Shown here: in pieces, positions 2,945-30,197 of the stretch
Layout: each line of letters begins with the position of its first letter
How positions within the stretch are numbered: the stretch's first letter is position 1
Origin: an uncultured Bacteroides sp.
GTDB lineage: Bacteria > Bacteroidota > Bacteroidia > Bacteroidales > Bacteroidaceae
Assembly: GCA_947074235.1 (NCBI GenBank)
Contig: CAMTOV010000010.1
Location: forward strand, 1 to 38,594
DNA length: 38,594 nt
Direction of reading: 5' to 3'
Notes under the pieces: model-generated
Database searches by the model: none
What the model saw: the letters and a program-made list of their open reading frames with translations, nothing else
What the model was told of the DNA's origin: nothing
Program-made: the position numbers and the translations under genes

Positions 2945-3451
2945 TTAATCTTTATTTCTTACTCCAATGCCAAATTCACGTTTTTCTTTTGGCTCGGGGG
3001 CTACTTTTTGAGTTTCTTCATCTACTATGATGTGATTGATTTTGAGTGTGCGAATGAGCGACTCGTAATTGACCACAATATTGGCAAAGCCACGATACTC
3101 TTTTGTAGGAAGTGTTTCGATAGCGCCATCCAATTGAATTCCTTTCACAAAACCATTGTAAGGTGCTCTATCGCCACCTTTGAAGAAATTGTCTAACCAA
3201 AACTTCTTTTCTTGCTCTACCAATTTTTGGTCATCGTTAAAACCTTCTACGCCTTCGTAGAATAGTTTATAGAAAAGATTTTTGGTAGCGGCTTCTAGCA
3301 CACCCTTCTTTTTATCGGACAACCCTTCGGCTCGAAAAGTAGCTGTGGTTTCGTCCAACTCTAGTAGTTCTACCTCTCCTACTCCTTTGTATTGGGCATG
3401 GAGGCTGCAGCTTAGGCCTACTAATAACAGAAAGAAAAAAAGTTGTTTCAT
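2945..3451 (-). CDS. Hypothetical secreted protein
   Basis: 168 aa with signal peptide MKQLFFFLLLVGLSCSLHAQ. Packed 7 nt after the upstream CDS in the operon. Confidence 0.7.
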   Translation of the reverse strand: MKQLFFFLLLVGLSCSLHAQYKGVGEVELLELDETTATFRAEGLSDKKKGVLEAATKNLFYKLFYEGVEGFNDDQKLVEQEKKFWLDNFFKGGDRAPYNGFVKGIQLDGAIETLPTKEYRGFANIVVNYESLIRTLKINHIIVDEETQKVAPEPKEKREFGIGVRNKD

Positions 3452-3458
3452 ATATGGA

Positions 3459-4298
3459 TTAATTTAGAATATCACCCAACCCGAATAGGTCTTTTTTAGC
3501 GCGAGACACAACGATAAGCCTCACATTATTATCGAAAGCGTTTTTGATCTCTACTCCACCCTTTGATACTGTGCAAAGTGTGATGCCACTACTTACTACC
3601 TCTTTAGCTTTGGCTGTGCCAATTTGTTTTTGTCCGATTTCGCCAGCAATTTCAATTTCTTGGTAAACATCGAACATTTGTCCTGGCTGGATGCCGGCTT
3701 CGCTACCCAATGTAACATAAACTGTTTTAGCTCCTTTTTTAGGGTCTACTTGGTCGAGCGCTTTGATTACGGCCTCCATTTTGAATTTATTGTCGACAAA
3801 CTTCTTCATATCGCCAATAGCTTCTTCTAATGCTTTTGTAATAGACTCAGACTCTGTGCTACCTGAATACCAAGTATTTTTAAAGTTTTCTGAACCCAAC
3901 ACAGCACCAGTTTTAGTATCGACAAGCGTCAATGTAAAATCGGCTGTAGTTTCGTAGGTACTCTTTCCGTCTTTGTAGTTTCGTAGTGAATGCAAAGAGT
4001 TGAAATGACCTTTGATTAACACGTCTACATTGCTTTGACGCAACTCACCTAAGCGTTGTTCGTTATCGTTTGATAAATTGCTTAGATTAGTAATGTCGAT
4101 AATATTCAAACGGCCTGTTTGATGAATACCTTGAATGACATTGTTGCGAAGGTTTGTAACCCAGTTTGTTCCAATACTTGTGTTGTAACCAAAATTATCA
4201 ACGCACACATTTGTTTTCTCGTTTTGCGCAGAAATTGTTGTTGCAAACAGCAATGCAACAAACAAAGATGAAATAATTTTTTTCATAAATCTAGTCAT
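3459..4298 (-). CDS. Secreted CsgG/FlgT-C-like protein, paralog of CDS 1982-2797 (start may be the internal Met at 4286)
   Basis: MKKIISSLFVALLFATTISAQ signal peptide. Shares KKGAKTVYVTLGSEAGIQPGQMFDVYQ...IGTAKAKEVV...RLIVVSRAKKDLFG with its paralog. Confidence 0.68.
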   Translation of the reverse strand: MTRFMKKIISSLFVALLFATTISAQNEKTNVCVDNFGYNTSIGTNWVTNLRNNVIQGIHQTGRLNIIDITNLSNLSNDNEQRLGELRQSNVDVLIKGHFNSLHSLRNYKDGKSTYETTADFTLTLVDTKTGAVLGSENFKNTWYSGSTESESITKALEEAIGDMKKFVDNKFKMEAVIKALDQVDPKKGAKTVYVTLGSEAGIQPGQMFDVYQEIEIAGEIGQKQIGTAKAKEVVSSGITLCTVSKGGVEIKNAFDNNVRLIVVSRAKKDLFGLGDILN

Positions 4299-4328: not shown

Positions 4329-5603
4329 TTATAAATCTTGTGCCAAGCGAAGCCCTATGGTAGATGAGGAATCTCCTGGCTTTTCGTGTCCGCGATAGGC
4401 ATTGCGTAGTGAGGACTCTTCGTCTTTGTATGAACCGCCACGAATGATTTTGCGAACTCCCATTTTAGGGCCTGTAGGGTTGTTTTCTTTGACTGCCGTA
4501 TACTTGCCCAGCCAATCGGAGCACCATTCGGCTACATTGCCACTCATATCATATATGCCCAAAGCATTGGGTTGTTTCATGCCAACATAATTGGTGCACA
4601 CGCCTACATGGGCAACTTTGGCCAATTGGCTACTTCCCGAAAATTCATCGCAAGGATCTGTGCCTCTGCTACGGGCAGCATACTCCCACTCGGCCTCGGT
4701 AGGTAGTCGGAAGCTTGTTCCGCAACGTTCGTTGAGTTTTTGAATAAACTCTTGACAATCTTTCCAAGTTACATTTTCTACCGGGAAATTAGGACCTTTA
4801 TTGATGGACGGATTGCTACCCATGATTTCTTCCCAAAGGGCTTGGGTAACTTCTGTTTTGCCAATGCTATAGCCACGAAGAGTTACCTCGTGCACGGGTT
4901 GTTCGTAATTGAATGTGGTGCGTTTATCGTTTTTGGCGGTAGAGCCCATATAGAAACTTCCCGCAGGCACCTTTATCATTTCGTAGGAGATGCCATTGAC
5001 AGAAAAGCTGCCGGCTGCACGCATGGGGATATGCTGTTTTAGCTTTTTATTGAGCTCTACATCTATCATTGCACGTTCGTCGTTGTATCCGGCCGCTTTT
5101 AGTTCAACGGTGTGTTTTCCCTCAGGGCCTTTGTAGCTATAGGGTGTAACACTGCTCATTTTTTCGCCATCTACATATACATCGGCATTGGGCACATTGC
5201 TGGTGATGGTGACAATGCCGGTGGGGCCATCATAGGCCACTAGAGGGCGCTCTATCTGCATGATGTAGGTAGAATTGGGATTGACAGCATCGAACTCATA
5301 GCGCAAAGGCAGGTATTTTTTGGTTTTAATATTCAACCAATTGGCGCCTCCTATCAGATATACCCAATACTCTCCGTTTTTGAATTCTGATTTTACAATA
5401 TCACCTTCGAAAGTGGCATCGGCAACGGCTAGCCCAACCTTGACCAAGGCACAGGGGTCGCCACCCAGATCTTTGACCTGAAACTTAACGGCACTGATAT
5501 CGCTATCGTCCAATCGGAACTCTTTGACAGTAAGCTCTTGAGCTGACAGCGATTGGCCTATAAATAGTAATAATGTGATAATGTATGCAAAATATCTACT
5601 CAT
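4329..5603 (-). CDS. Secreted PEGA + SUMF1 (formylglycine-generating-enzyme-like) protein
   Basis: PEGA segment ITSNVPNADVYVDGEKMSSVTPYSYKGPEGKHTVELKAAGY. SUMF1 segment IKVPAGSFYMGS...YSIGKTEVTQALWEEIMGSNPS...RLPTEAEWEYAAR...IYDMSGNVAEWCSDW...RGGSY. Confidence 0.88.
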   Translation of the reverse strand: MSRYFAYIITLLLFIGQSLSAQELTVKEFRLDDSDISAVKFQVKDLGGDPCALVKVGLAVADATFEGDIVKSEFKNGEYWVYLIGGANWLNIKTKKYLPLRYEFDAVNPNSTYIMQIERPLVAYDGPTGIVTITSNVPNADVYVDGEKMSSVTPYSYKGPEGKHTVELKAAGYNDERAMIDVELNKKLKQHIPMRAAGSFSVNGISYEMIKVPAGSFYMGSTAKNDKRTTFNYEQPVHEVTLRGYSIGKTEVTQALWEEIMGSNPSINKGPNFPVENVTWKDCQEFIQKLNERCGTSFRLPTEAEWEYAARSRGTDPCDEFSGSSQLAKVAHVGVCTNYVGMKQPNALGIYDMSGNVAEWCSDWLGKYTAVKENNPTGPKMGVRKIIRGGSYKDEESSLRNAYRGHEKPGDSSSTIGLRLAQDL

Positions 5604-5605
5604 AA

Positions 5606-6592
5606 TTAAGGCAACTTAAATTTGTTGAGGGTAAATACTTCGTCTTCGCTCACCTCGGTGGGTTGCCAAGTGCGTACATGTATTTTGGGGGCATCTTCGT
5701 TGGTAAAATCCCACACAAGAAATACGATACCCTTGTCGCTGTATCTTGATGAGTTCCACTCTTGCACCAAGGTTACACCATAATAGTTGGGTTTGGCTCC
5801 GTGGCGCTTGATGCGATAATCGTTGAACTTGACATTGATATATCCGTTGTTGGCAAAAACACTGCGAAGATTGTTGAGATACTGTTGCTTGTCTTGCACT
5901 TTGTACTCCACTTCTACCTTGGGCAAGCTAATTTCGGAAGGGACACGTTTTACTACCTTACCTGTAACAATGAGTGCATCGTCGCTAAAGATATCGTTCA
6001 TAAACTTGATATCTTTTTGATTGTAGGCCGTGCGGAACTGCTCGATATAGTGAATAATCTGCATGCGGCGGTCTATATCATTTAGCTCTATACCCTCTTT
6101 CATCAACTGAGTATATTGGCGGATGCCCATGGTGATATTGAAATCGACAATTTTGCCAGATGTGTTGAAGTCGATACATACCTCTTGATGGCGATCGTCG
6201 GTATAAGTATCGTCTAATGGATACATTTGAATAGCGATGTTGCGCACTTGATAGCCACGCAGCGTGTTGTTGCCATTGCGCAATTGCAGGCAGTGCTCTA
6301 CGATATCATCGTCCATGGTGCGGAAGTGCACATTATTCCAAAGCATGCAGATGCTTTGTGTGGCCATATCGTCGATATCGATGCCCGAGAAATTGATGTC
6401 AGTATTGTTTGTCTGAGCACGGTTGATAGCGGTGAGCAAGTTGGAAATTTGACGTTCCATCTTATTCTTCAAGGTGGCATTTTCTATACCGTCGGAAAAT
6501 TCAAAAGAAACAGCATCTTGCGCTTGCAATCCTGATGAACAAATCAGTAACATTAGTAGTACTACTGATGAAGTTTTTAATATACCTTTCAT
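5606..6592 (-). CDS. Secreted protein with C-terminal NTF2/SnoaL-like region
   Basis: Signal peptide ending GLQAQ. C-terminal FRTAYNQKDIKFMNDIFSDDALIVTGKVV...KGIVFLVWDFTNEDAPKIHVRTWQP resembles NTF2-like domains. Confidence 0.6.
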   Translation of the reverse strand: MKGILKTSSVVLLMLLICSSGLQAQDAVSFEFSDGIENATLKNKMERQISNLLTAINRAQTNNTDINFSGIDIDDMATQSICMLWNNVHFRTMDDDIVEHCLQLRNGNNTLRGYQVRNIAIQMYPLDDTYTDDRHQEVCIDFNTSGKIVDFNITMGIRQYTQLMKEGIELNDIDRRMQIIHYIEQFRTAYNQKDIKFMNDIFSDDALIVTGKVVKRVPSEISLPKVEVEYKVQDKQQYLNNLRSVFANNGYINVKFNDYRIKRHGAKPNYYGVTLVQEWNSSRYSDKGIVFLVWDFTNEDAPKIHVRTWQPTEVSEDEVFTLNKFKLP

Positions 6593-6607: not shown

Positions 6608-7363
6608 TTATTTTGACAGTGTGAACCAAAGAGCATTGGCGCCCGAATAATTGGTTAATGAATCGTATCGCATGGTTTTGAAATTGGTGCGCTGAGTGCC
6701 CGGACCAAGTATGGTTTGAATCATGCCATTGTTGTCGGCAATAATCCAGAAGCAGTTATTGGGGTTTTTGCACTCATCGTAGGTGCCATAGCGCTTTACT
6801 TTATACTCAACCTTCAACCTGTTGAGCGATGCCTTGGCACTGGTTAAAGTAGATGCAGCCAGCAGTTCGTTGATGACATTTTGTTGCCAGCTAGACTCAA
6901 CTGGGTTGTCGGCTACTTCTACAGGCTCACCTTGAGGCAACTCTTCTATTTGGGCAGGAGGAAGCGCAATGGTTGGCTCGGGTTTGACTTCAACCACCTC
7001 GGGCTTTACCATCGTGATGAGATTGTCGGCAGGAATGATGTCGCTCTTCTTTACGTAAACAAACACACGATACATTTCGCCACGCATCATTTGAATTTTA
7101 TCGCAATTGCTGGCTATATCTTTGATGATAATATTTTCGGCTTTACTCAGTTTCTTCTTGTCTTCTACATAATCGTTGATATAGACCGTAAGCAGCTCTT
7201 CGGCCACTTGGTAGGCTTCACTTTCGGTGGCCATGGTGGCTTCGGCATAGATATACTGATTGTTTCGCTTAATAGAATTGATCTGTTTCGTCTCAGATTG
7301 TTGAGCCGAGATAGATGCAGCGATGATGCAACCTAACAGTACAAGTGTAGTTTTTAGTTTCAT
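6608..7363 (-). CDS. Hypothetical secreted protein (LPP20-like N-terminal half)
   Basis: 251 aa, signal peptide MKLKTTLVLLGCIIAASISAQ, central proline/acidic linker. Only weak domain resemblance. Confidence 0.55.
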   Translation of the reverse strand: MKLKTTLVLLGCIIAASISAQQSETKQINSIKRNNQYIYAEATMATESEAYQVAEELLTVYINDYVEDKKKLSKAENIIIKDIASNCDKIQMMRGEMYRVFVYVKKSDIIPADNLITMVKPEVVEVKPEPTIALPPAQIEELPQGEPVEVADNPVESSWQQNVINELLAASTLTSAKASLNRLKVEYKVKRYGTYDECKNPNNCFWIIADNNGMIQTILGPGTQRTNFKTMRYDSLTNYSGANALWFTLSK

Positions 7364-7366
7364 TAT

Positions 7367-8491
7367 TTATTGTCTTAGTTCGTCAAACAAATATTTAATT
7401 TTGGAGGATGGCACGTAACTATTCAATCGGGCCTCGATAATTCCTTTTCTATCTTCGAGTTGAGTAATATCGAAAGTTAGTTTCATCACATGATTGTAGC
7501 CCAAATCGGCATTGCGCATCAATAATTCGCAGGTAGCAAAATTGCCATCATAGTTTATGACTCCCACATAGGGGGTGCAACCGGTGTTTAGGCAGAAGTT
7601 TATCCAGCTATTGAGCGGAACGCTTATCGCATCTTCGGTGAGGCCATACTTTTTGAGGCGAATATCCATCACAAACTGATTGTCGATGGCTGAAGATGTG
7701 AGTAGATTGGCTAAGCTCTCTAAGGGGTATTTTGAAGTGTATACTAAGTTGTAGCCACCGGTATCATCTTGCTCGAAATACTTATTTGTATTTAGCTCAT
7801 TTGAATAATAGCTTTGACCTTGCTGAATGAAGTAGTTTTTCTGCCACGTAGCCGATAGCTCATCTGGGGTAGCTGCAACGGAGTTGCTACAAGCAGCACT
7901 GGTTTTTAAAATTTCGCCGGCTAGGCGTCGTTCGTTTTCCAGCATTTCGCTGCCATTGAGCAAATCGTAGTCGATAGGAAACTTGATGGCGCAATAGGTC
8001 TGATTGTTTTTTTGCCATTGCACCAGGTAGTTCTTATCATCTTTATTCTCTATGCTCACTTGATAGGTGGTGTCATTGAACAAATGGCAAAAGGACGAGA
8101 ATGTGCCTTTATCAAACGACACTCCACTCTCGGCAATGTGTTTCTCTACCGATTTTTCGCGCTCTAAGGGTACAGCTATTTCCAAAGAAAATCGTTCAAG
8201 GAAGTTGCAAATAGGTGCTTTGAGAAGAGAACGCTGATAGGGAGTAAAAAGAGAATGCCCGATGTGCTCTATGCTATTGTTGCGCACAATGACCGTGACA
8301 GGCTGCCCCTGATAAGTAAATTGTTTATAGTATTCACCATTGGCTAGTGAACTCAACTGAGAGGTGATATTCATAGAAGCTGCCATACGAGCCAGCAGGT
8401 CGGTTTTATAATCATTGCTAGCTATCAATGAATTATTGATAGCTAACAACGAGAATAATAGGAGGCATGTATGTAGCTTCAGTTTCAGCAT
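7367..8491 (-). CDS. Hypothetical secreted protein
   Basis: The ORF track begins at 8560 and overlaps the upstream gene. The internal Met at 8491 gives MLKLKLHTCLLLFSLLAINNSLIAS (signal peptide) and a clean 4-nt gap, so I prefer that start. Confidence 0.65.
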   Translation of the reverse strand: MLKLKLHTCLLLFSLLAINNSLIASNDYKTDLLARMAASMNITSQLSSLANGEYYKQFTYQGQPVTVIVRNNSIEHIGHSLFTPYQRSLLKAPICNFLERFSLEIAVPLEREKSVEKHIAESGVSFDKGTFSSFCHLFNDTTYQVSIENKDDKNYLVQWQKNNQTYCAIKFPIDYDLLNGSEMLENERRLAGEILKTSAACSNSVAATPDELSATWQKNYFIQQGQSYYSNELNTNKYFEQDDTGGYNLVYTSKYPLESLANLLTSSAIDNQFVMDIRLKKYGLTEDAISVPLNSWINFCLNTGCTPYVGVINYDGNFATCELLMRNADLGYNHVMKLTFDITQLEDRKGIIEARLNSYVPSSKIKYLFDELRQ

Positions 8492-8495
8492 ACTT

Positions 8496-9317
8496 TTAGA
8501 TATTAATCCACTTTTGAGTGCCATTGGTGAAATGGATTTGACCTTGCACCAATCTACCATTTATGAATTTTGTATTTGAGATGTAATCACCTTTTCTAAC
8601 GTTTACATACTCGGCAGGCATCTTTTTTAAATCGATTTGATAACTGGTAGTGAAGGTAAGTGTGCCACCCATGCCATGAGGCTTGCCATTTTGACGTGGG
8701 CCATCGTAGATAGCATATCCTAAGTTGACTTTGCCGTTAGTATTGCCGTCATCAACCTTTACCGGTTCTCCGGGTTTAGCAGGTTCTTCAGTCACTTCTT
8801 CTACTTCTTCAACGGGAACTTCTACAACAGGAGCATTCACTACATATTGACACATTGCTACAGCGTCGCCGTTTTCGTTGGCAACTACTGTTACGGTAGC
8901 TTCTCCGGGAGCTATGGCAGTAACCTGTCCATTGCTTACTTCTAATACAGCCGGATTGCTGGTAGACCACACATAGGTAGCTGGGGCGTCAATCGGATTA
9001 TTGGTTACCACCAATGTATTTTGATCGCCAACTAACATTGTTTGAGTGGATGCATTTAATACAAGACCTTCAATTTTTGGTGTGGAAGGAATAAACAATA
9101 GAGCTATAGCGCCACCCAGTATGATCACCACTACAATGATGCAAGCGATAAGCTTCCAGTTACTACCTTTTTTCTCTTGCACCTCGCGCAAATCAGAGTG
9201 ACACTCCGGACAGATAAAATCGTCCAGTTCATCCATCTCTATTTTTTCACTGGCTTTGGCTTTGCTGCAATTTTCAAAGTTCTCGCAAACACCATATCTT
9301 TTTCCATTTTTTGCCAT
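8496..9317 (-). CDS. Zinc-ribbon / single-TM / Big_2 Ig-like protein with MORN-like C-terminus
   Basis: N-terminal VCENFENC...FICPECHSDL; TM WKLIACIIVVVIILGGAIALLF; Ig-like TYVWSTSNPAVLEVSNGQVTAIAPGEATVTV; C-terminal GKPHGMGGTLTF repeat-like segment. Confidence 0.75.
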   Translation of the reverse strand: MAKNGKRYGVCENFENCSKAKASEKIEMDELDDFICPECHSDLREVQEKKGSNWKLIACIIVVVIILGGAIALLFIPSTPKIEGLVLNASTQTMLVGDQNTLVVTNNPIDAPATYVWSTSNPAVLEVSNGQVTAIAPGEATVTVVANENGDAVAMCQYVVNAPVVEVPVEEVEEVTEEPAKPGEPVKVDDGNTNGKVNLGYAIYDGPRQNGKPHGMGGTLTFTTSYQIDLKKMPAEYVNVRKGDYISNTKFINGRLVQGQIHFTNGTQKWINI

Positions 9318-9333
9318 AATCGTATTCTTTTAT

Positions 9334-12300
9334 TTATGATTTCAATTCTTTGGTTAATGCACGACAAACATCTAAGTATGTTTTGTATACAGGGTCGGAC
9401 GTGTTGTTTTTTCGTTCGGTCAGCACTGAGTTAGACACTGCTACTACAGCCTTAGCCAACTCTTCGCGAGCAGTGATGTGCAAATAATCTTCGGCCATCT
9501 TTTCGTTGATTTCTTCTATCAACTGAAGAATGTCGGCACGTTTTACCGTTTCTGTTTCGTGAAGCTCCGAAAGTTTTTCAGTGAATACGATTGGAGGCAA
9601 TGGGAAACCGTCTTCATCTACCTTCAAACGACAGTAATATTTGCGGCCTGTGCCATCGCCATTTTCTTGATATTGAATCAAGCCCATAGCTACACCCAGA
9701 ATCATATCTTTGAGGTATTTCTTAGGGTCGAATCGCTCTACAAATAGGTTTGGATATTGGCTGCCATCGCCCTCTAAATGAAGCACCAAGCGGTTGATTT
9801 CACCTTGTTGATCATCGTTGATCATCAATTCGTATTTAGGTTTGAGCATCTTTATATCGTTGACCGCACGCAATGGGAAGCAATAAGTTAAGTTGATAAT
9901 CGTGATTTCGTTTATCTTAGGACTATTCAACTCGAAACTGATGGTGCGAGAGCCGTCTGTGCCTTCTTTGAATGCATCGACAAGACGATCGACAAATGCT
10001 TGTTTTGACTTATCGGGGGCAGCCGGAATACTAATTAAAGTAGTGCGGAACATGATATTGACGCCCGGACGAGGTGCAACATTGTTGGTAATAGTACGGG
10101 TGGTTTCAGAACTATCGAATGTTAAGAATACACCTGCTGAACGTACCATTTTATCGGCAAACTCTTTGAGTTGGTCGGCTTGTTCGGACGAACCGTATTG
10201 TTCGTATAGTTGGTCGATAATATTTTTGTCGATGATGCCTTTTTTATTGCCTTGTATAGCATCATTGTGTGCTTTTGTGGCCGATTCACGGCAATTCTTT
10301 TCGAGCACAGTCACCATGATGTCTTTGGTTACCTTCTCTTCCATCTTGGCAAAAGAGGGTTCTGCTCCGCACACCTCGGCAAGTTTATTCAAAATGTTTT
10401 TGGTTTGCTCGTTTTGAGTAGACTTGGTGAGGCAAAGTGATTTTGTGATGGCTCTAACCGCTGCAGGATCGTAGTAGCGCACTACAGGGTCTTGGAAGTT
10501 ATTATCCACATTGCCCTCTTCGTGACAGCGTTTGTTGATATCTTCTTTCGTTTCCTTGATAGCTTCGGTCATGCGTTCGCTCAACACGTTTACATTTTCG
10601 CCCAGTTCGCTAACCATCACACTTAAATCGCGCAATAGCGCTTTGGCAAATTGCAACCCTTCGAGCTCGGTTTTGATGATGTAGATTTTCTTCATCAATG
10701 GAATGTGATTGGCATGCAAATCTTTGCGACTACCCAAAAGGTGTTTGCCCAAGAAGCCTACATTGCCCCACTGCTGCTCGTTGCGAGTTTTTCTTTCAAG
10801 CAAATCTGATAGTTTGCCCTCGCGCTCTACAATCATTTTTTGATAGCGTTGAGCGGTATCGTCAATATATTCGGAGATCATAGAGACCATGCGACTAATG
10901 CCATAGATAGAGCGTTCGCCACTTTGCCACTGTTCGAATAAGAGTTTTTCGATAGCATTGCTAATCTCGCGTGCATGCTCGTCTTTTGATTGGGTTTTGA
11001 CAGAAAAAAATTCGGGAGCTCCACGTTGGCGGAATTTCTTGTCGAAGCGATCTTGACACAAACGAGACATCTCTTGCAAAGCATGATCTTGATTATTGTT
11101 CCAAGCTGCTTGACCAATGATAGGCATAATAGCTTCCCAATCATCTGTGAATGTTTTCCAATTTTGTTCTTTCTCACTCTTCAAGATAGGCAACGACAAC
11201 ATCAAGTGATCATCTGTCATGAAGATGCTCTTCAAGAATGGTTGATTGTTGAAAATCTTCGAACGATAATCATCGGGTTCTGCTTCATCACGATAGCCCA
11301 AATCATCGGACCAATTGCCATACTTGATGCGATAGAGCGCCTGTATAGCGAAATTGTAGGTAAGGTATTCTTTGATTTCTTCTTCGGGGTTGACAATGCG
11401 TTTAATACCAAAAGATTTGAAGGCTTTGGTACGCACAGGTACTTTCATATCTGTGTCTACTGCATCTTCATCGTATTCATCTTTAGGATCTACATTTTCT
11501 GTAGAGAAGCAGTCTTTGAACTCACGCACGTTGCTATCTTCGGGCAAAGTGATATAATGATATACAATGTCGCTTACAATATTGGGTAGATCGTCTTTGG
11601 TATTGACCGTGATATTGCTTTCGTTGGCATTGGTATACAAAAAGCAAGAGTTGAAGAAGTCGTTGCCATCGTATTGCACTTTATCAAACTGTCCGCTTAC
11701 ATCGTGTGGAGTGAACTTTCTAACTTTGAATGCATTGAGCTCGGTAAGGGCAGCAAACCCGTTGGCATGATATGCCCCTTTGTCCCAATTGGGCAGTGGA
11801 GAATGCTCGGGGATTTGACAGTATACAATGATTTTGTAATTTAAACCTGAAGTTACATTAGGCTCATAGTGCTTGCGAGTTTGAGCAATGACATCGACCA
11901 CCGAACCCGAACCTGTTCCACCGGCTAGACCAGCAAAAATATGGAAAGTGATATCGGTATTACTACTCACGTCTTTGACGTGTTGAACTTGATTTTTGAG
12001 TAGAGATTCATATTCATTGACACTGCACGAGAATAGGAATCTACCTAAACGACGCTTTTGTGCAGCTGCACCATCATCGCCTACATTGCCCACAATGTTT
12101 CGCCATATCTTTTTACTACCAATCCAACTAGAGATGCCTGGATAGTTGTCGACATTATCTAATTGATCGCTTAGCTTAGCACCACGAACATATAGAAAAC
12201 TATCTTTGCCAAGTTGTGAGTTTTCTCCTAGCACTTTCCAAGTTTGATCTTTGGGATTCATCATCTCCATACTGGAGTCAACATAAACAAAACCCAAAGG

Positions 12301-12420
12301 CAGTTTACGTCTCTCTTCAGTTGAATTCTCTTGAAATAGTCTTTTTCTAATGGCTTTTAGGATTTTTCCACCTGTGCCACCAATGCCTATAAAGACATGG
12401 TTGTCTTTCACGTCAATCAT
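9334..12420 (-). CDS. Tubulin/FtsZ-superfamily-like protein (Tubulin_2-like)
   Basis: 1028 aa. N-terminal HVFIGIGGTGGKILKAIRKRL, then FAGLAGGTGSGSVVDVIAQ matching the tubulin signature loop (codons at 11905-11922). Confidence 0.85.
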   Translation of the reverse strand: MIDVKDNHVFIGIGGTGGKILKAIRKRLFQENSTEERRKLPLGFVYVDSSMEMMNPKDQTWKVLGENSQLGKDSFLYVRGAKLSDQLDNVDNYPGISSWIGSKKIWRNIVGNVGDDGAAAQKRRLGRFLFSCSVNEYESLLKNQVQHVKDVSSNTDITFHIFAGLAGGTGSGSVVDVIAQTRKHYEPNVTSGLNYKIIVYCQIPEHSPLPNWDKGAYHANGFAALTELNAFKVRKFTPHDVSGQFDKVQYDGNDFFNSCFLYTNANESNITVNTKDDLPNIVSDIVYHYITLPEDSNVREFKDCFSTENVDPKDEYDEDAVDTDMKVPVRTKAFKSFGIKRIVNPEEEIKEYLTYNFAIQALYRIKYGNWSDDLGYRDEAEPDDYRSKIFNNQPFLKSIFMTDDHLMLSLPILKSEKEQNWKTFTDDWEAIMPIIGQAAWNNNQDHALQEMSRLCQDRFDKKFRQRGAPEFFSVKTQSKDEHAREISNAIEKLLFEQWQSGERSIYGISRMVSMISEYIDDTAQRYQKMIVEREGKLSDLLERKTRNEQQWGNVGFLGKHLLGSRKDLHANHIPLMKKIYIIKTELEGLQFAKALLRDLSVMVSELGENVNVLSERMTEAIKETKEDINKRCHEEGNVDNNFQDPVVRYYDPAAVRAITKSLCLTKSTQNEQTKNILNKLAEVCGAEPSFAKMEEKVTKDIMVTVLEKNCRESATKAHNDAIQGNKKGIIDKNIIDQLYEQYGSSEQADQLKEFADKMVRSAGVFLTFDSSETTRTITNNVAPRPGVNIMFRTTLISIPAAPDKSKQAFVDRLVDAFKEGTDGSRTISFELNSPKINEITIINLTYCFPLRAVNDIKMLKPKYELMINDDQQGEINRLVLHLEGDGSQYPNLFVERFDPKKYLKDMILGVAMGLIQYQENGDGTGRKYYCRLKVDEDGFPLPPIVFTEKLSELHETETVKRADILQLIEEINEKMAEDYLHITAREELAKAVVAVSNSVLTERKNNTSDPVYKTYLDVCRALTKELKS

Positions 12421-12442: not shown

Positions 12443-12991
12443 TCAATATAAATCTAAATCGTCGTCGTAATTGTAATTGGGCTTTTTAGGTTGAGCTATA
12501 GCAATGATAGTTACTCCTACGGCCATGAAACCAATCATCCATAGTATGCGTCGCAAAATATAATAGTTGATAGAGCTTTTTATCTCTGTAATGACATCCA
12601 ACACTACATTTCCATTAACACCATCTGGAACAACTACGCCAACTTTATTGAGGAATGGAGACAACAAAGGGTATTGTTCTGCTATATCGTTCTTTAATTC
12701 GACACTTTGCTGTATGACGGATTGAGTGCTACTCTCAACTTGACCAATCATCGAGGCTATATTGCCTCCTATACTATTGACTGTGCTTTTGACATTGATA
12801 GCACCTACCAGCATAAAACTTTGCGCAAAAATAAAAATCAACAATAGGGCGAAAATGATAAAACTAACAGGAGATAACGTGAAAGATGGAGAAAGAAGTC
12901 TTAAAATTACATATACTAAAAACACAAGTATAACTGTGAGAAGAAATCCCCACAAAATGCACGAAAATATATTTCCAAAAATTGCAAACAT
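12443..12991 (-). CDS. Small integral membrane protein with acidic C-terminal tail
   Basis: The ORF track starts at a TTG (13030). The ATG at 12989-12991 (MFAIFGNIFSCILWGFLL) is more likely. About three TM segments, tail PKKPNYNYDDDLDLY. Confidence 0.7.
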   Translation of the reverse strand: MFAIFGNIFSCILWGFLLTVILVFLVYVILRLLSPSFTLSPVSFIIFALLLIFIFAQSFMLVGAINVKSTVNSIGGNIASMIGQVESSTQSVIQQSVELKNDIAEQYPLLSPFLNKVGVVVPDGVNGNVVLDVITEIKSSINYYILRRILWMIGFMAVGVTIIAIAQPKKPNYNYDDDLDLY

Positions 12992-13218
12992 AATAATTCT
13001 ATTAATTATGATTGTGAGTAGAAACACCAACCAATAACTTTAAAAAAATACAAACAGTCTAGTCATGGTTATTATAATGAACTAATTAGGTTTGTTGCTT
13101 ATCGTGTTTTTTCATCCAAAACAGTTGATAAATGGCGCTGAATAGCTCTTTTGTGTTATAATAACATGTTTTGCAAATATAAACCATATTTAATCAATAT
13201 TGTATACTATATTTTTAT

Positions 13219-13263: not shown

Positions 13264-13641
13264 ATGAGTGAAAATAACAAAAAAATGGTTGGCCAAAGAT
13301 TGCACTTACTTCGAATTGAAAAGGGGTTGACGCAAGAACAGATGGGAGAAATGCTGAATATCTCGACAAGTGCGTATTGCAAAATAGAGTACGGTGATAC
13401 CGACCTCACATTGACAAGAATTACTAAAATAGCTGATACTTTTGGAATGTCGGAGATGGAATTATTTGGTAAAATTACCAACAATAGCATGGGGTATGAT
13501 TATCATGAATCGAGCCTTCATTCTGTAACTTACGAACGTAGTCTAATCAAACATATTGACAGTTTGAAAGAATTAGTAAAATCAAACAGCAAACTAATTG
13601 ACCATTTAAGCAAACGAATTGTTGAGCTGGAAAAGAAATAG
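13264..13641 (+). CDS. XRE-family HTH transcriptional regulator
   Basis: VGQRLHLLRIEKGLTQEQMGEMLNISTSAYCKIEYGDTDLTLTRITKIADTFGMSEMELF is a canonical Cro/CI-type HTH, followed by a short coiled-coil-like tail. Confidence 0.9.
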   Translation: MSENNKKMVGQRLHLLRIEKGLTQEQMGEMLNISTSAYCKIEYGDTDLTLTRITKIADTFGMSEMELFGKITNNSMGYDYHESSLHSVTYERSLIKHIDSLKELVKSNSKLIDHLSKRIVELEKK

Positions 13642-18493: not shown

Positions 18494-19057
18494 TTAGCAA
18501 ACAATATCCGACCGATAATTGATATTGGCAAAGTTGTTATCTTCTTCGGGAGAGATAAGAAATGATTGGCTAACAGATGTATCGAGCAAGGAGCGTAGAT
18601 TATACGATTTCTTCTCTATCTTTTGTTGGATAGCGCTGAGCAGCGAACGGGATATAAGAAGTGGGAAAAGCTGTATACTTTGCCTGCAATCTTTCCAGTA
18701 GGTGATTTGCACCTCTTCGTTAATGGAGAGCAACCGTTTGGCACAAGCTACTGTCATATAAGGCATATCGCAACTAATGAAAAGGTAGTACGGGGAACGG
18801 GCGTGTAGCATGGCTGAGTAAATGCCTCCCAGTGGACCTATATCGGTGATTAAATCGGGTATACACGCTACACCCAATTGCTGATAATCATCGCATTGAC
18901 CACTGATAAAGACTTTGCTGCAAAGAGGTGTCAGTAGTTGGACTGCACGTGATAAGAGTGTTTGCCCCTGATGCACATAAAGGGCTTTGTTGCTACCAAA
19001 GCGTGAGCTTCTACCGCCGGCTAGCACTACTCCTATTATTTGATCTCGGGCAATCAT
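18494..19057 (-). CDS. mobA: Molybdenum cofactor guanylyltransferase
   Basis: GVVLAGGRSSRFGSNKALYVHQGQTLLSRAV nucleotidyltransferase motif. Gene context with nitrate reductase. Confidence 0.88.
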   Translation of the reverse strand: MIARDQIIGVVLAGGRSSRFGSNKALYVHQGQTLLSRAVQLLTPLCSKVFISGQCDDYQQLGVACIPDLITDIGPLGGIYSAMLHARSPYYLFISCDMPYMTVACAKRLLSINEEVQITYWKDCRQSIQLFPLLISRSLLSAIQQKIEKKSYNLRSLLDTSVSQSFLISPEEDNNFANINYRSDIVC

Positions 19058-19533
19058 TTACACTTTATTTGTTTGTAATGGGTGATGTGATAGTGTTGCA
19101 ATAGGTCGTTGAAACGATGAAGCCGAAAGACTAGCCTCAACTCTACCCCTGCAGATAGGGCTTGCTTTATCACATTATCGAACCCTTCTCCCTGCAACTC
19201 TTGGTTGCCAATCTCGTCAATCCAAATGGGCGTATGACCGACATGGATGGCATCAATCAACCATCGAGAGGCTTCTTGAAAGGCTTTTTGCGAGAACACA
19301 AAGCGATTGTATTGCAATAAATCGGTATCCACCAGCATATCTTTGTAAGCCTTGAAACGGATGAATGGGGCTGAACTTTTATCGGGCAGGCGCACTAGAT
19401 CATAGCCAATCCATTCATCTTCTTGATACACTTTTTGAGTAAGCACCCCCACACCGGCATTCTCTTCAAGATATAACTGCTCTAAAAGCGATGTCTTACC
19501 TGAACCTTTTCTACCGGTGATGATGGTAATCAT
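19054..19533 (-). CDS. THEP1-like P-loop NTPase
   Basis: Walker A GRKGSGKTSLLEQL and Walker-B-like PIWIDEIGNQELQGEGFDNVIKQAL. Overlaps both neighbouring CDSs by 4 nt. Confidence 0.7.
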   Translation of the reverse strand: MITIITGRKGSGKTSLLEQLYLEENAGVGVLTQKVYQEDEWIGYDLVRLPDKSSAPFIRFKAYKDMLVDTDLLQYNRFVFSQKAFQEASRWLIDAIHVGHTPIWIDEIGNQELQGEGFDNVIKQALSAGVELRLVFRLHRFNDLLQHYHITHYKQIKCK

Positions 19534-20225
19534 AGTTTATCAATCAATGTTTTGGAAGAGTCGAACATCTTGTTGCCGCGAAACATATACATCACCGGAG
19601 CTTTTATCATGTGCATCAGTTTGGTGTATGGGAATATCATGAAGATAAAGAACCCATTGACAATGTGAAGTTTATAAATGATGTTGGCTTCTAGGATATG
19701 TTTCCATGCGTTGGGTTCGAACCATACAAGACCTTGCGCCCAGTAATCGAAAGCCAAATAATCGGCAAGTGTAGACTGGGTAGTGATGTAGGTGCTAAGC
19801 AACCCGAGCGATATTTGCACCAAGATAAGAAACACGATGAAGTAATCTTGAAAAGAGCTGGTGCTATGCACACGGCTTGAAACAAACTTGCGTATGCAAA
19901 GCAATGACAAACCAATAAAGGCAAAGAAGCCGGCACACAAACCGATGGAGATGGCAAGCATCCGTTTGGTTTCGAGCGGCATAAACCACTCAATAACGAA
20001 TGGTGGTGTGAATAACCCAAACACATGACCAAAGAATACTAAGATAATGCCATAGTGAAACAACGGACTACCCCACTTGATGAGCCAGTCTTTCTCGAGG
20101 AATTGAGTAGATGTGGCATGAATCGTTTTGTTGGACACAAAGAAATGATAAAGCACACCTATCAAAAAAGCTGTGAGGGCTATATATGGCAGGTAGCCCA
20201 AGAATAAACCATTAACATAATCCAT
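19530..20225 (-). CDS. narI: Respiratory nitrate reductase gamma subunit (cytochrome b)
   Basis: 231 aa, multi-TM, with His in FHYGIILVFFGHVFG and YKLHIVNGFFIFMIFPYTKLMHM, matching the NarI heme-ligand pattern. Confidence 0.93.
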   Translation of the reverse strand: MDYVNGLFLGYLPYIALTAFLIGVLYHFFVSNKTIHATSTQFLEKDWLIKWGSPLFHYGIILVFFGHVFGLFTPPFVIEWFMPLETKRMLAISIGLCAGFFAFIGLSLLCIRKFVSSRVHSTSSFQDYFIVFLILVQISLGLLSTYITTQSTLADYLAFDYWAQGLVWFEPNAWKHILEANIIYKLHIVNGFFIFMIFPYTKLMHMIKAPVMYMFRGNKMFDSSKTLIDKL

Positions 20226-20237
20226 ATCTATGCATAT

Positions 20238-20768
20238 TTAGGTTGCCAATACTGTTACTTCTCTACCCATCAGCGATTGAAGAATATTGAAGATGTATTT
20301 GTAGAAAACATCTTTCTCGTTGGTGAGTTTATGAAGTTTTTCAATCACATTTTTGATATCATTTAATAGTTTTATCGTTTTACCCTCGTCGGTTTGAAAC
20401 GATAAATACTCAAGAAACACGGGCAGGTAATCGGGAAGTTCATTGGTGGTTAGCTCAAAGCCATCATTGCTATATGTTTCTTTGAGATTGACCATAGCCA
20501 TGCCCCGTTGGCGCGAATCTCCATAGATATGATCGAACAGATAAAGATTAATCTGTTTGGACATATCAAATACATTGACGTAATACATTTGCCACTCTTC
20601 CAATGAGAGTTTTTCGCACTCGGATAGGAAGGCATCCAGTTGTTTCAGTTCCTCCTCATTGAGATAATGATCGCAAGTAGCTTCATTGTCAATAAAAGGA
20701 ATAGTATCATAAACATCCTTTTCGGGATATTCGAGTAACAAGGATAATATTTTATATGTTTTCTGCAT
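20238..20768 (-). CDS. narJ: Nitrate reductase molybdenum cofactor assembly chaperone
   Basis: 176 aa; ILSLLLEYPEKDVYD...YLPVFLEYLSF typical of NarJ/TorD. Position between narH and narI. Confidence 0.88.
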   Translation of the reverse strand: MQKTYKILSLLLEYPEKDVYDTIPFIDNEATCDHYLNEEELKQLDAFLSECEKLSLEEWQMYYVNVFDMSKQINLYLFDHIYGDSRQRGMAMVNLKETYSNDGFELTTNELPDYLPVFLEYLSFQTDEGKTIKLLNDIKNVIEKLHKLTNEKDVFYKYIFNILQSLMGREVTVLAT

Positions 20769-20798
20769 AAAGTAAAGTAAAATGTTTATTAAGCAATA

Positions 20799-22277
20799 TT
20801 ATAAGCCGCCAAAGGCGTTCCATTCGTTGGGGTTGCCATCGGGATATTCGTAGCCACCTTCTGAGCGCAAAGCGAACATATCTTTATCATCTTTATAGGA
20901 GGTGGTAGGCACCACAAAGCGATCTTCATAGTTGGCTATGGCCAGATAGCGATACATCTCTTCGTATTGCTCGGCAGTGAGTCCTAATTCTTGCGGCACA
21001 TCGGGGTTGTCTACTCCTTCTACTGTTTGCTGGCGTTTGCGTCGGCGCAAGGCTATGAGCTTTTCGAGTGCCTCAACCACTAGTTTCTCATTGCCTGCTG
21101 TGAGCATATTAGCAATATACTTGATGGGAATGCGCATATCGGCTACATTGGCCACATACACGTCAGACGATTCGGCCTTATTTATTTCTTGCAGCACTGG
21201 CGATAATGGTGGTATATACCACACCATAGGGAAGGTGCGAAACTCGGGATGAAGCGGAAAGGCTAGCTTCCACTCTTTTGTCATTTTATAGACGGGCGAT
21301 TGCTTGGCTGCTTCTAGATATTCATAGGTGATGCCCTGGTTGAGTGCTTCGGCATAGACTTGTGGGTCGTTGGGATTGAGAAAGACTTCCAATTGTGCTT
21401 CGTACAAATCTTGCGGATTTTCGGTGGCAACACTAGTTGCAATCTTATCTTCATCGTAAAGCATCACCCCCAAGTAGCGGATGCGTCCTACACACGAGTG
21501 TGAACAGGTGGTAGGCAGCCCACTCTCGATAAGTGGGAAACAGAAGATACACTTCTCGGAACGCTGACGACGCCAGTTGAAATAGGTCTTTTTGAAAGGA
21601 CAAGCGCTGACACACTCGCGCCAGCCACGACACTTATCTTGGTCGATAAGTACGATGCCATCTTTCTCGCGTTTGTAGATAGCCCCCGAAGGACATGCTG
21701 CCAGACATGCAGGATGCAGGCAGTGCTCACAAATGCGAGGTAGATAGTACATGAATGAGCGTTCGAACTCCTCCATTCCTTTTTGATCCATATCTTGTAG
21801 ATTGGGATCGGACTTGCGATTCTTGAAAGGGCCTCCCAAATCATCTTCCCAGTTGGGACCGTATTTTATATCCATCAGCTTGCCGGTGATGAGTGAGTAT
21901 GGGCGAGCAGTGGGAACGGTTTTGCACTGTTTGCTATCTCTCAGCACTGATAAGTTGAACGTAAACGGCTCGTAGTACCGGTTGATAGAGGGAAGATAAG
22001 GATTGGCAAAGAGGTCGGTGAGTATCTTAAAACGTGAACCTTGCACGAGGTCTACTTTACCTTTTTTGGCCAACTTCCATCCTCCTTTGTATCTCTTTTG
22101 GTCTTCCCAGTCGATGGGATATCCCGGACCGGGCTTAGCCTCAACATTATTAAACCAAACATACTCTACCCCTTCGCGACTGGTCCATACATTTTTGCAA
22201 GTGACCGAACAAGTGTGACACCCGATACATTTATCGAGATTCATCACCATGGCTATTTGTGCTTTAATCTTCATCAT
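20799..22277 (-). CDS. narH: Respiratory nitrate reductase beta subunit (Fe-S)
   Basis: CIGCHTCSVTCKNVW, CEHCLHPACLAACPSGA, CRGWRECVSACPFKK (Trp in place of a Cys, as in NarH) and CIFCFPLIESGLPTTCSHSCVGR. Confidence 0.97.
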   Translation of the reverse strand: MMKIKAQIAMVMNLDKCIGCHTCSVTCKNVWTSREGVEYVWFNNVEAKPGPGYPIDWEDQKRYKGGWKLAKKGKVDLVQGSRFKILTDLFANPYLPSINRYYEPFTFNLSVLRDSKQCKTVPTARPYSLITGKLMDIKYGPNWEDDLGGPFKNRKSDPNLQDMDQKGMEEFERSFMYYLPRICEHCLHPACLAACPSGAIYKREKDGIVLIDQDKCRGWRECVSACPFKKTYFNWRRQRSEKCIFCFPLIESGLPTTCSHSCVGRIRYLGVMLYDEDKIATSVATENPQDLYEAQLEVFLNPNDPQVYAEALNQGITYEYLEAAKQSPVYKMTKEWKLAFPLHPEFRTFPMVWYIPPLSPVLQEINKAESSDVYVANVADMRIPIKYIANMLTAGNEKLVVEALEKLIALRRRKRQQTVEGVDNPDVPQELGLTAEQYEEMYRYLAIANYEDRFVVPTTSYKDDKDMFALRSEGGYEYPDGNPNEWNAFGGL

Positions 22278-22278
22278 G

Positions 22279-25200
22279 TTACTCTTTTATGGGTTCATCG
22301 GTTTCATCACCCCATTGCACTTTATCGCACTTACGCAAAAGAACTACCTCATCGCGATTGGCACCAATGGTTCCGTAATAATTTAAACTAAAGGATAGCT
22401 GTGCATAGCCTCCAATCATGTGTGTGGGTTTGGGGCACAAGCGAGAGATGGAGTTGTGTATGCCACCACGGTTGCCAGTAGTAGGACTAAGGGGCACGTT
22501 GACCATTCGCTCTTGATTGTGATAGAAATAGACTGCTCCTTGTGGGATGCGTTGCGACACGACTGCTCTACACATGGCAGAGCCGTTGTTGTTGAGCACT
22601 TCTACCCAATCGTTGTCTTTGAGGTTGATGCTATCGGCATCTTTCTCGCTTATCCAGATGACCGGACCGCCACGACCGAGGGTGAGCATCATCAGGTTGT
22701 CGGCCCACGTAGAGTGTATGCCCCATTTATTGTGAGGTGTCATCAAATTGAGTGTCAATATATCGCCGGTGATGCCGAGACGCTCTTTGAGATTATCGAC
22801 TTCTTTTTTGCACAAAGGCGGTTTGTATACCACCAGGTTCTCGCCAAAGGCCGAAATCCAAGGGTGATCTTGATAGAGAGTTTGACGGCCGCTCAAAGTG
22901 CGCCAAGGTACTAACTCAAACACATTGACATGATTGGCCGAATAGGTATTTTCATCATTTTCTACACCACTCCAGATAGGCGACACCAAGGCTCTGCGTG
23001 GCTGCTCTACCAAGTCGCGATAGCGCAGGTGTGTCTCTTCCTGACCGTCGGCCAAGTGAGTAAGTTGAAGCCCTGTTTTGCCTTCCAACGATTTCCAAGC
23101 TTTCACTCCTACCTCGCCATTGCTTTCGGGAGATAGGGTAAGGATGGTTTCTACCGCATCGATATCGCTATCAATGCGTGGTAGACCTTGGGAATCGCCT
23201 TCGTTCAGCACCACACCATTGAGTCGTTTTAAGAAATCGATCTCTTCTTGCACTTTCCAGCTAATGCCTTTGCCGCCTTCGCCCAAAGTAGACATCAATG
23301 GGCCTAAGGAAGTAAAGCGTTTGTAGGTATCGGGATAGTTGCGCTCTACGGTAACGAGGTGTCCCATATCTTTACCCGGAACGGGTATGGTATTGTTTAC
23401 TTTCCAATCTTCTACATGCAAGGGCTCGGATATCTCACCGGGCGAATCGTGCAACAAGGGGGCTAACACTACATCTTGCTCTACGCCGAGATGCCCCACA
23501 CAGAGTTCGGAGAACTTCTTGGACAGGTCTTTGAAGAACTGCCAATCCGACCGTGACTCCCAAACTGGATCGATGGCCTGAGAGAAGGGATGGATAAATG
23601 GGTGCATATCGGTAGAGCTGATATCGTTTTTCTCGTACCACGATGCAGCAGGCAGCACGATATCGGAATGCAAGGAAGAGGTAGTCATGCGGTAGTCTAC
23701 CGTGACAACCAAATCGAGCTTGCCGGTGGTTTCTTCTTCGCGCCATTTTTCAAACTGAGGCAATGGTTGTTGCATCTGTTTAATGTCTTCGCCCAAGAGG
23801 TTGTTTTGCGTGCCAAGCAGGTGCTTCATCACATACTCCATGCCCTTGGCGCTACAACCAAAGAGATTGGCTCGCCAAATAAATAAATTACGAGGGAAGT
23901 TGACAGGGTTGTCCAAATCTTCGGAAGCCAAATACATATCGCCTGTATGCAGCTTATTGGTCACATAATCGTCTACGCTCTGACCTTGCTTTTTAGCCTC
24001 ATCGGCAATAGACAAGGAGTTGACATTGAGTTGTGGGGAAACAGGCAACCAGCCCAATCGCTGCGAGCGAATGTTGCAATCGACCATCGTTAGGTCTTTC
24101 CACTTATCCTTATCGGCCAATGGAGAGAGCTGATCTTCTATATTTACCTTTTCGTATCGCCATTGGTCGCTATGCATATAGAAATAGCTGGTAGAGTTCA
24201 TCTGTCGAGGCGGACGACACCAGTCGGTAGCAAAAGCCAAGACACTCCACCCTACTTGCGGACGCACTTTCTCTTGCCCCACATAGTGAGCCCAGCCACC
24301 GCCCGACTTGCCCACTGTGCCACAAAGCACCAGCAGATTGATAGCGGAGCGATAGGTCATGTCGGTATTGTACCACTGATTGACCCCTGCACCGATTATA
24401 ATCATCGATTTACCTTCTGTCTTAGCCGCATTGTCGGCAAACTGACGGGCCACGGTGATAATTTGATTGGCAGGTACACCTGTAATCTGCTCTTGCCAAG
24501 CCGGGGTGTAAGGGATGTTATCGGAATAATCTTTAGCAACATTATCATCGCCCAAACCACGGTCTATTCCATAATTGGCCACTAAGAGGTCGAAAGCTGT
24601 AGTGCAGTATATATCGCCCTCTTTGGTAGTACATTTTATTACAGGTACTTTTCGCTGCTGGATGTTGCCATGATTGGAGGCGCTGTAGTATGGATTCTTA
24701 TAATCTTCACCACCGAAATAAGGGAATGCTACATCTAGCAATTCCTCTCTTTTATCGATAACAGATAGAAGTGGCGTATAAGCATCGCCGGTGCGTACAT
24801 CTTGCCATTTCAGATTCCATTTGCCACTATTGTCCCAGCGTGAGCCCATGGCACCATTGGGCACTACCATCTTGCCGGTAGCCTCATCGAGCAACACGAG
24901 ATGCCAGTCGGCATGATCGGCTACCCCTAGTTGGTCGGCAAAATCGGATGTACGAAGCATCATGCCACTTTTATAATAACCATCGGGAGTCTTTTCGAGC
25001 TTCACCAAATAAGGCAAATCGGTATATTGTTTGACGTAATTGTCGAAGTAAGGTGTTTTGTTTTTGATGTAAAACTCATTGATGATAACATGCCCCATAG
25101 CCATGCCCAAAGCCGAGTCTGTGCCCTGCTTGGGTGCAATCCATGTATCGGCAAACTTGGTAGCAGCACTATAATCGGGAGAGATAACTACCACCTTGGT

Positions 25201-26025
25201 ACCTTTGTATCTTACTTGGGTAAGAAAGGGTGAGTCGGGCGTACGAGTGATGGGTACATTAGAGCCCCATAGCATAAGATAAGAGGAGTTATACCAATCG
25301 GCACTTTCGGGCACATCAGTCTGCTCGCCCCACGTTTGTGGCGACGAAGGAGGTAGGTCGCAGTAAAAATCATAGAAGCTCAAGCAAGTTCCACCCAAAA
25401 GACTGAGATAGCGAGTGCCCGATGCATAAGAGACCATAGAGAAGGCAGGTATTGGCGTGAATCCCACCACTCGGTCGGGCCCATAGGTCTTGATGGTGTA
25501 GATATTGGCAGCAGCAATCATCTCCAAAGCCTCATCCCAAGGCACACGAATAAAGCCACCCAATCCTCTTCTGCTCTTATACAAAACAGATTGAGATTTA
25601 TCATCCATCACCGATTGCCAAGCTTTTACGGGGTCGGTGTTTTGAGACTTAGCGTCACGATAAGCACGTAGCAACTCATAGCGAACCATGGGGTGCTTTA
25701 CCCTACCCGAATTGTATAGATACCACGAGTAGCTTGCACCACGTGGACAGCCTCGCGGTTCGTGATTGGGCAGTCCCGGATGGTTACGGGGATAATCGGT
25801 TTCTTGCAACTCCCAAGTCACAATGCCTTTCTTTACAAAGATTTTCCACGAGCACGAACCTGTACAGTTCACGCCATGTGTAGAACGCACCTCTTTGTCG
25901 TGTTCCCAACGAAAACGATAAAAGTTCTCCGAAGGTCGTTTATCGTTTAAGTCATTCTTACTTACATTTTGTTCTCCAGTTTCTTTCTGAACGAAATAAC
26001 GAGATTTATTAAAAACGGATTTCAT
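22279..26025 (-). CDS. narG: Respiratory nitrate reductase alpha subunit (molybdopterin)
   Basis: 1248 aa; STHGVNCTGSCSWKIFVKKGIVTWELQETDYP, NHEPRGCPRGASYSWYLY, WGSNVPITRTPDSPFLTQVRYKGTK. Confidence 0.97.
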   Translation of the reverse strand: MKSVFNKSRYFVQKETGEQNVSKNDLNDKRPSENFYRFRWEHDKEVRSTHGVNCTGSCSWKIFVKKGIVTWELQETDYPRNHPGLPNHEPRGCPRGASYSWYLYNSGRVKHPMVRYELLRAYRDAKSQNTDPVKAWQSVMDDKSQSVLYKSRRGLGGFIRVPWDEALEMIAAANIYTIKTYGPDRVVGFTPIPAFSMVSYASGTRYLSLLGGTCLSFYDFYCDLPPSSPQTWGEQTDVPESADWYNSSYLMLWGSNVPITRTPDSPFLTQVRYKGTKVVVISPDYSAATKFADTWIAPKQGTDSALGMAMGHVIINEFYIKNKTPYFDNYVKQYTDLPYLVKLEKTPDGYYKSGMMLRTSDFADQLGVADHADWHLVLLDEATGKMVVPNGAMGSRWDNSGKWNLKWQDVRTGDAYTPLLSVIDKREELLDVAFPYFGGEDYKNPYYSASNHGNIQQRKVPVIKCTTKEGDIYCTTAFDLLVANYGIDRGLGDDNVAKDYSDNIPYTPAWQEQITGVPANQIITVARQFADNAAKTEGKSMIIIGAGVNQWYNTDMTYRSAINLLVLCGTVGKSGGGWAHYVGQEKVRPQVGWSVLAFATDWCRPPRQMNSTSYFYMHSDQWRYEKVNIEDQLSPLADKDKWKDLTMVDCNIRSQRLGWLPVSPQLNVNSLSIADEAKKQGQSVDDYVTNKLHTGDMYLASEDLDNPVNFPRNLFIWRANLFGCSAKGMEYVMKHLLGTQNNLLGEDIKQMQQPLPQFEKWREEETTGKLDLVVTVDYRMTTSSLHSDIVLPAASWYEKNDISSTDMHPFIHPFSQAIDPVWESRSDWQFFKDLSKKFSELCVGHLGVEQDVVLAPLLHDSPGEISEPLHVEDWKVNNTIPVPGKDMGHLVTVERNYPDTYKRFTSLGPLMSTLGEGGKGISWKVQEEIDFLKRLNGVVLNEGDSQGLPRIDSDIDAVETILTLSPESNGEVGVKAWKSLEGKTGLQLTHLADGQEETHLRYRDLVEQPRRALVSPIWSGVENDENTYSANHVNVFELVPWRTLSGRQTLYQDHPWISAFGENLVVYKPPLCKKEVDNLKERLGITGDILTLNLMTPHNKWGIHSTWADNLMMLTLGRGGPVIWISEKDADSINLKDNDWVEVLNNNGSAMCRAVVSQRIPQGAVYFYHNQERMVNVPLSPTTGNRGGIHNSISRLCPKPTHMIGGYAQLSFSLNYYGTIGANRDEVVLLRKCDKVQWGDETDEPIKE

Positions 26026-26085
26026 AAGCTAGTACCGTTAGTTATTATTACATAGTATTTTAGATTGCAGGTTTAAAAGGCTCTT

Positions 26086-28328: not shown

Positions 28329-28345
28329 ACTACAATCCTTATAAT

Positions 28346-30173: not shown

Positions 30174-30197
30174 ACATGCTTTATACTAGAGTACAAA

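Follow-up and report, generated by a model that had tools for sequence, protein, structure and literature searches.

The tubulin-like gene and its operon

The window (the whole stretch of 38,594 nt that was analysed, from an uncultured Bacteroides sp.) carries a run of co-directional genes on the minus strand, separated by small gaps. Among them is a gene for a tubulin-like protein of 1028 aa (9334–12420, minus strand), whose frame starts at 12420 and is uninterrupted over 1028 codons. The plus-strand translation of the same region is full of stops, and two antisense ORFs with TTG starts (9893–10417 and 10990–11589, plus strand) were judged to be chance open frames.

The tubulin-like gene is preceded, at a distance of 22 nt, by a gene for a small multi-span membrane protein (12443–13030; 195 aa from a TTG start). 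Directly downstream, after 16 nt, is the gene for a zinc-ribbon protein of 273 aa (8496–9317), identified by Pfam and alignment. It overlaps, as listed, with the gene for the exported protein E397 (7367–8560), which is listed with 397 aa but probably begins at an internal start. Further exported proteins follow: E251 (6608–7363; 251 aa) after a gap of 3 nt, NTF328 (5606–6592; 328 aa, weak NTF2-like matches in Pfam) after 15 nt, and a SUMF1-type protein of 424 aa (4329–5603) with PEGA (8e-12) and FGE-sulfatase (7e-43) domains after 2 nt. Two facultative members of the cluster are next, an exported protein of 279 aa (3459–4298; gap of 30 nt; a weak FlgT_C match below cut-off) and one of 168 aa (2945–3451; gap of 7 nt). 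The run probably ends with an exported 271 aa paralogue of the 279 aa protein (1982–2797), which lies beyond a gap of 147 nt. All of these genes are on the minus strand, and most of the proteins encoded from 8560 down have a signal-peptide-like start, ending near 'AQ'.

A gene for an XRE-type HTH protein (13264–13641, plus strand) is divergent from the operon and is a candidate regulator; in the relatives compared it showed no conserved linkage to the operon. No Rfam families or tRNAs were found in the window.

The minus strand also carries a respiratory nitrate-reductase-like cluster (19530–27372), with genes for a molybdopterin oxidoreductase (22279–26025), a ferredoxin-type subunit (20799–22277), a NarK-like transporter (26086–27372), and chaperone- and membrane-subunit-like proteins. 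To our knowledge, such clusters are uncommon in this bacterial group. A MobA-like gene (18494–19057) and an NTPase gene (19054–19533) adjoin it. Nearby, a fusion of TrmO_N and FmdE is encoded together with an ABC transporter of the FecBCD type (27465–31322, minus strand); the location next to Mo-enzyme genes suggests uptake of molybdate/tungstate or of a molybdophore.

Family assignment

Residues 9–362 of the tubulin-like protein (11335–12396, minus strand) match the Tubulin_2 model PF13809 with E=4.4e-60 (204 bits, cut-off 27), and the limits of this nucleotide-binding domain are supported by model secondary structure and conservation. A match of this strength means that the ORF called in the original prediction is real and not a chance frame. 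The classical Tubulin model PF00091 gave 6e-5 only, under its own cut-off. FtsZ_C and Tubulin_C were both absent in the Pfam scan, no NCBIfam model gave the protein a name, and phmmer found zero matches among PDB sequences.

PF13809 corresponds to FtsZl1, a family described by Makarova and Koonin in 2010 (PMC2875224) and labelled 'FtsZ-like (Tubulin_2)' in PMC9871819, and a member from Bacteroides caccae was already present in the 2010 alignment (PMC2875224). FtsZl1 proteins were described as having about 1000 aa, with an N-terminal FtsZ-like domain carrying GGTGSG, a central long helical or coiled-coil part and a C-terminal domain (PMC2875224), and the secondary structure of our model agrees with this layout. 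The T6–T7 region could not be confidently identified by sequence in FtsZl1 either, and the published loci likewise have membrane-associated neighbours and a patchy spread; the published C-terminal domain was described as mostly helical (PMC2875224). The size that had been remarked upon, more than twice that of FtsZ, is correct and is usual in FtsZl1, as most relatives have frames of about 1000–1200 aa. Since the protein fits the description of 2010 and the family is already named, it belongs to a known family and is not a new kind of protein.

Predicted fold

An AlphaFold2 model, built with 60 full-length relatives in the alignment, had a mean pLDDT of 90.9 and a pTM of 0.79. All of the 50 PDB matches listed by Foldseek were CetZ, alpha-, beta- or gamma-tubulin, or TubZ, with a prob of 1.00 and E values between about 3e-5 and 1.5e-4. 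In a viral structure library the top matches were FtsZ-like phage proteins and PhuZ. The structural comparison proposed earlier thus recovered CetZ, tubulin and TubZ and no unrelated Rossmann fold, and together with the Tubulin_2 match it upholds the predicted membership of the tubulin/FtsZ superfamily. The protein shares the predicted fold of the nucleotide domain, and the T1 and T4 loops, with CetZ, TubZ, FtsZ and tubulin, but identity to these is only 11–16%.

In the model, the nucleotide-binding domain comprises residues 1–366. It is followed by an all-helical segment (residues 367–775; 10096–11322, minus strand) with two very long helices, 505–553 and 564–629, in an antiparallel, coiled-coil-like arrangement, and by a C-terminal alpha/beta domain (residues 776–1028; 9337–10095, minus strand). 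What had been predicted as a very long C-terminal extension is indeed long, but is modelled as two parts, an all-helical segment of about 410 residues and then a separate alpha/beta domain. Within the latter, residues 791–848 form a unit of strand, helix, strand and strand, the same order as S8-H10-S9-S10 of FtsZ, and residues 333–366 could, judging from the model, be S7-H9 of an FtsZ-type activation domain. If so, the helical segment would be an insertion into that domain. The isolated C-terminal fragment folds alone (pLDDT 87.7) and gave nothing in Foldseek at E<=0.001, so a split activation domain stays hypothetical. Excision of the putative helical insertion from the profile gave a score against FtsZ no better than that of control splices.

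Nucleotide-binding loops

The T1 loop (FIGIGGTGGKIL) occupies residues 10–21 (12358–12393, minus strand). The T4 loop GGTGSG (residues 167–172) lies at 11905–11922 of the minus strand, exactly where the original prediction had placed it; its context reads LAGGTGSGS, compared with GGGTG(S/T)G in the superfamily. Both loops of the proposed layout are therefore present. Among 60 homologues the invariant residues include G14, G15, G17 and G18, D48, Q121, R123, G126 and R127, GLxGGTGxG, the GR of T3, N266 and E315. By the order of elements, a T6-like motif (YTNANE; 11620–11637, minus strand) and an H7-like helix containing D284 (residues 278–291; 11548–11589, minus strand) may be assigned. In the model and the 60-sequence alignment, S6 (258–262) leads into Y-T/S-N-x-N266-E, and D284 is D or E in 58/60.

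The T7 acid had not been found in the original prediction. A candidate for it is the loop ENVDPKDE (residues 308–315; 11476–11499, minus strand), which follows helix H7 and has the family consensus ENxDxxxE (E308-N309-x-D311-x3-E315). It is well conserved, with E315 in 60/60 sequences, E308 and N309 in 59/60 and D311 in 44/60. The T7 motif is NxDxxD in FtsZ and NVDxxE in alpha-tubulin. The window protein reads NVDPKDE, with a spacing from N to E of 6 instead of 5, and the loop may be placed at the T7 position by order of elements rather than superposition, which answers the earlier gap in part. The NxDxxD motif, the full T1–T7 set and FtsZ_C that mark FtsZ are not combined in this protein, and in a profile-profile comparison with 22 FtsZ sequences the T4 region alone aligned (residues 141–183).

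These features bear on whether the protein may form filaments. It might instead bind nucleotide without polymerising and work, as a monomer or dimer, like a GTP switch by which an envelope complex is gated; the helical arm would then be a spacer. The atypical T7 and the lack of similarity beyond T4 by profile comparison would fit such a switch, as would the long helices, which suit an arm, and the authors of the 2010 study likewise had doubts about the usual filament interface (PMC2875224). The E308-N309-x-D-x3-E315 element, however, is conserved like a catalytic loop, and polymerisation is general in the superfamily; we regard the switch as somewhat unlikely.

Conservation of the gene cluster and the zinc-ribbon partner

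A single-sequence scan of genome contigs gave no relatives of the tubulin-like protein, and relatives were obtained by an alignment query of the contigs. Among those of the same bacterial family, most loci preserve the order membrane protein, tubulin-like protein, ribbon protein, E397, E251 and NTF328. The GTDB set consists of Bacteroidota plus a single Elusimicrobiota contig; at its loci with 6 kb or more of downstream sequence, the ribbon protein was present at 30/33 loci, E397 at 29/33, NTF328 at 27/33, E251 at 23/33 and the SUMF1-type protein at 16/33. The upstream small membrane protein was found at 28 of the 34 Bacteroidota/Elusimicrobiota loci with room for it. PEGA (14) and FGE-sulfatase (10) were the commonest Pfam domains among other neighbours. 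In several Betaproteobacteria, the gene that follows the ribbon gene encodes a TAXI/NMT1-like binding protein (7 members).

The zinc-ribbon partner of the window has ribbon cysteines at C11, C17, C36 and C39, one transmembrane segment by hydropathy (residues 56–74), and an outer part with a Big_2 domain (91–152) and then a C-terminal MORN-like part. Its signature is an N-terminal GxCxN(x)nC...CxxC followed by a single membrane span. A ribbon ORF, counted if it had CxN..C..CxxC and a start within -100 to +300 nt of the tubulin-like stop, was adjacent in 68/76 full-length relatives with downstream room. By comparison, only 11/871 other ORFs of the same loci carried the signature, and reading of the sequences showed 10 of these 11 to be further copies of the same protein type. 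Of the eight misses, three (L078, L104 and L125) have visibly the same protein with the last pair altered, and one (L076) has a ribbon protein 853 nt away; L083, L087, L093 and L096 have no adjacent ribbon protein. Two consecutive zinc-ribbon/TM proteins follow the tubulin-like gene in Methylacidiphilaceae and related loci (L070, L071, L072, L075, L080 and L089).

An alignment of 40 partners shows just five invariant residues, C11, N13, C17, C36 and C39, all within the ribbon. The C-terminal domains of these 40 vary, with OmpA in 11, PBP_like_2 in 11, Big_2 in 8, MORN in 7 and FGE-sulfatase in 2, and they differ between lineages, Big_2/MORN occurring in the window and PBP plus OmpA in Proteobacteria and Verrucomicrobia.

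A sub-clade of relatives provides a hint of contact between the two proteins. Sixteen relatives, including L034, L036, L042, L112 and L119, carry GYF_2 at the C-terminus, a type of domain that binds proline motifs. A PPP/APP stretch right behind the ribbon was found in 14/16 partners of these relatives versus 4/67 others (Fisher p about 1e-10; a test of independent pairs has one pair). The GYF_2 domain has a single origin on the tree, so the association represents one event and not independent proof, and the GYF-bearing proteins also have proline-rich tails of their own, which could be the target. The tubulin-like protein of the window has no GYF domain and its partner no PPP/APP stretch. The pairing fits, but does not prove, a putative contact with the partner at its end nearest the membrane.

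Relationship to FtsZl1 systems with vWA proteins

The majority of published FtsZl1 loci, but not all, have a vWA-domain protein in the operon (PMC2875224). No vWA protein was detected by Pfam in the window operon, and vWA is not obligatory for membership of FtsZl1. Nor were vWA, kinase or GTPase domains among the families common to at least two of 153 neighbouring proteins of relatives. The published system has vWA, GTPase and kinase neighbours, whereas the sub-lineage described here pairs with the zinc-ribbon/TM protein. Four loci of the same bacterial family (L029, L035, L043 and L044) have vWA-type neighbours and lack the ribbon protein; VWA was found by Pfam in L035, just below cut-off in L043, and by a DxSGSM motif in L029. 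In a tree of head domains, calculated without L029, L035 and L044, a long branch parts the ribbon-type relatives from L043, L165 and L166, with a support of 92 from a quick search with long branches. Polaromonas and Methylacidiphilum, placed outside the main bacterial branch in the 2010 FtsZl1 tree (PMC2875224), have relatives that are of the ribbon type here.

The locus could then be an ordinary FtsZl1 system, part of the published vWA/GTPase/kinase membrane-remodelling machinery, with the ribbon partner merely its 'OmpA-family' protein. The protein clearly belongs to the family, Polaromonas and Methylacidiphilum are represented in the 2010 tree and have relatives in the ribbon sub-lineage, and the partner ends in OmpA in Proteobacteria and Verrucomicrobia, so that the published OmpA association probably includes the ribbon protein. 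Against this, no vWA, kinase or GTPase was found in the window operon or among the shared neighbour families, the vWA-type members L035, L043 and L029 have no ribbon gene, and the constant part of the partner is the ribbon and not OmpA. This makes the ordinary system an unlikely description of the locus.

The ribbon-type system is a variant marked by its conserved zinc-ribbon adaptor, and is undescribed in the literature searched. Beyond the papers cited, that search gave nothing on the ribbon sub-lineage, the zinc-ribbon partner or later FtsZl1 work, and the word 'zinc' is absent from the main text of PMC2875224.

Distribution

The 77 usable loci belong to Bacteroidota (40), Pseudomonadota (23), Verrucomicrobiota (8) and six other phyla (1 each), although some assignments from single-contig MAGs may be wrong. 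The spread is patchy, with 7/61 of the nearest genomes, 22/151 in the family and 6/198 in the phylum sample, which indicates that the tubulin-like system is accessory and not division machinery. No FtsZ was seen in the genome of the window, but this says little as the genome is only 77.6% complete. A phage or plasmid origin of the tubulin-like gene was rejected (zero phage matches and a single plasmid record, a 1.09-Mb non-mobilizable replicon); for the same reasons, and with exported envelope proteins as neighbours rather than nucleases or toxins, it is very improbable, in spite of the patchy distribution, that the tubulin-like protein serves in defence or conflict as part of a mobile or accessory system.

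At one locus (L032:6980–12415) tubulin-like genes are in tandem; the first encodes a short protein of 774 aa in which T1 is degenerate (LEDNGS in place of LGGTGG) and which may be a nucleotide-free partner for the product of the second. Another FtsZ-like family is possibly represented by frames of 490–573 aa (L020, L021, L022, L167, L168 and L169), which match Tubulin_2 weakly and below its cut-off around T4.

Proposed role

In the literature searched there are almost no functional data on FtsZl1 proteins, and for Tubulin_2 proteins the only experimental lead is Sll0445 of Synechocystis (PMC9880817). This protein, from another lineage, co-purifies with proteins of pilus assembly and of the photosystems, and phototaxis is impaired in the mutant (PMC9880817). 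Sll0445 resembles the window system in its Tubulin_2 domain and its link to membrane and pilus proteins, but its neighbours differ, being FtsA-like (Sll0446) and DivIC-like (Sll0447) (PMC9880817).

The envelope proteins of the operon and the Sll0445 data favour a cytoplasmic tubulin-fold scaffold, tethered to the membrane via its zinc-ribbon partner and coupled to an envelope complex, and we consider this role, on balance, probable. The tubulin-fold protein would bind and might hydrolyse GTP, and would probably self-associate via its head and helical arm, possibly polymerising. The cytoplasmic N-terminal zinc ribbon of the single-span partner would dock it to the inner membrane, perhaps with help from the small upstream membrane protein. 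Once docked, the scaffold may organise or position a complex of the operon's exported proteins, which would be the Big_2/MORN, NTF2-like and PEGA/SUMF1 proteins here and PBP/OmpA proteins elsewhere. In the ribbon sub-lineage, it is the neighbouring genes that point to this envelope role.

A broader proposal is put forward more tentatively: a two-component, membrane-tethered tubulin system of at least nine phyla, in which a giant tubulin-like scaffold in the cytoplasm is joined, through a constant zinc-ribbon/TM adaptor, to periplasmic domains that are exchangeable, and in which an FtsZ-type activation domain may be split by a helical insertion of about 420 residues between H9 and S8.

Few members of the tubulin superfamily are as diverged as the FtsZl1 proteins. 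The zinc-ribbon protein offers a concrete candidate partner for them, with conserved residues available to mutate, and culturable members are at hand in Bacteroides oleiciplenus, Mangrovibacterium, Polaromonas and Nitrospirillum. The design suggested for the system is one cytoskeletal head and one type of adaptor, serving many different envelope domains.
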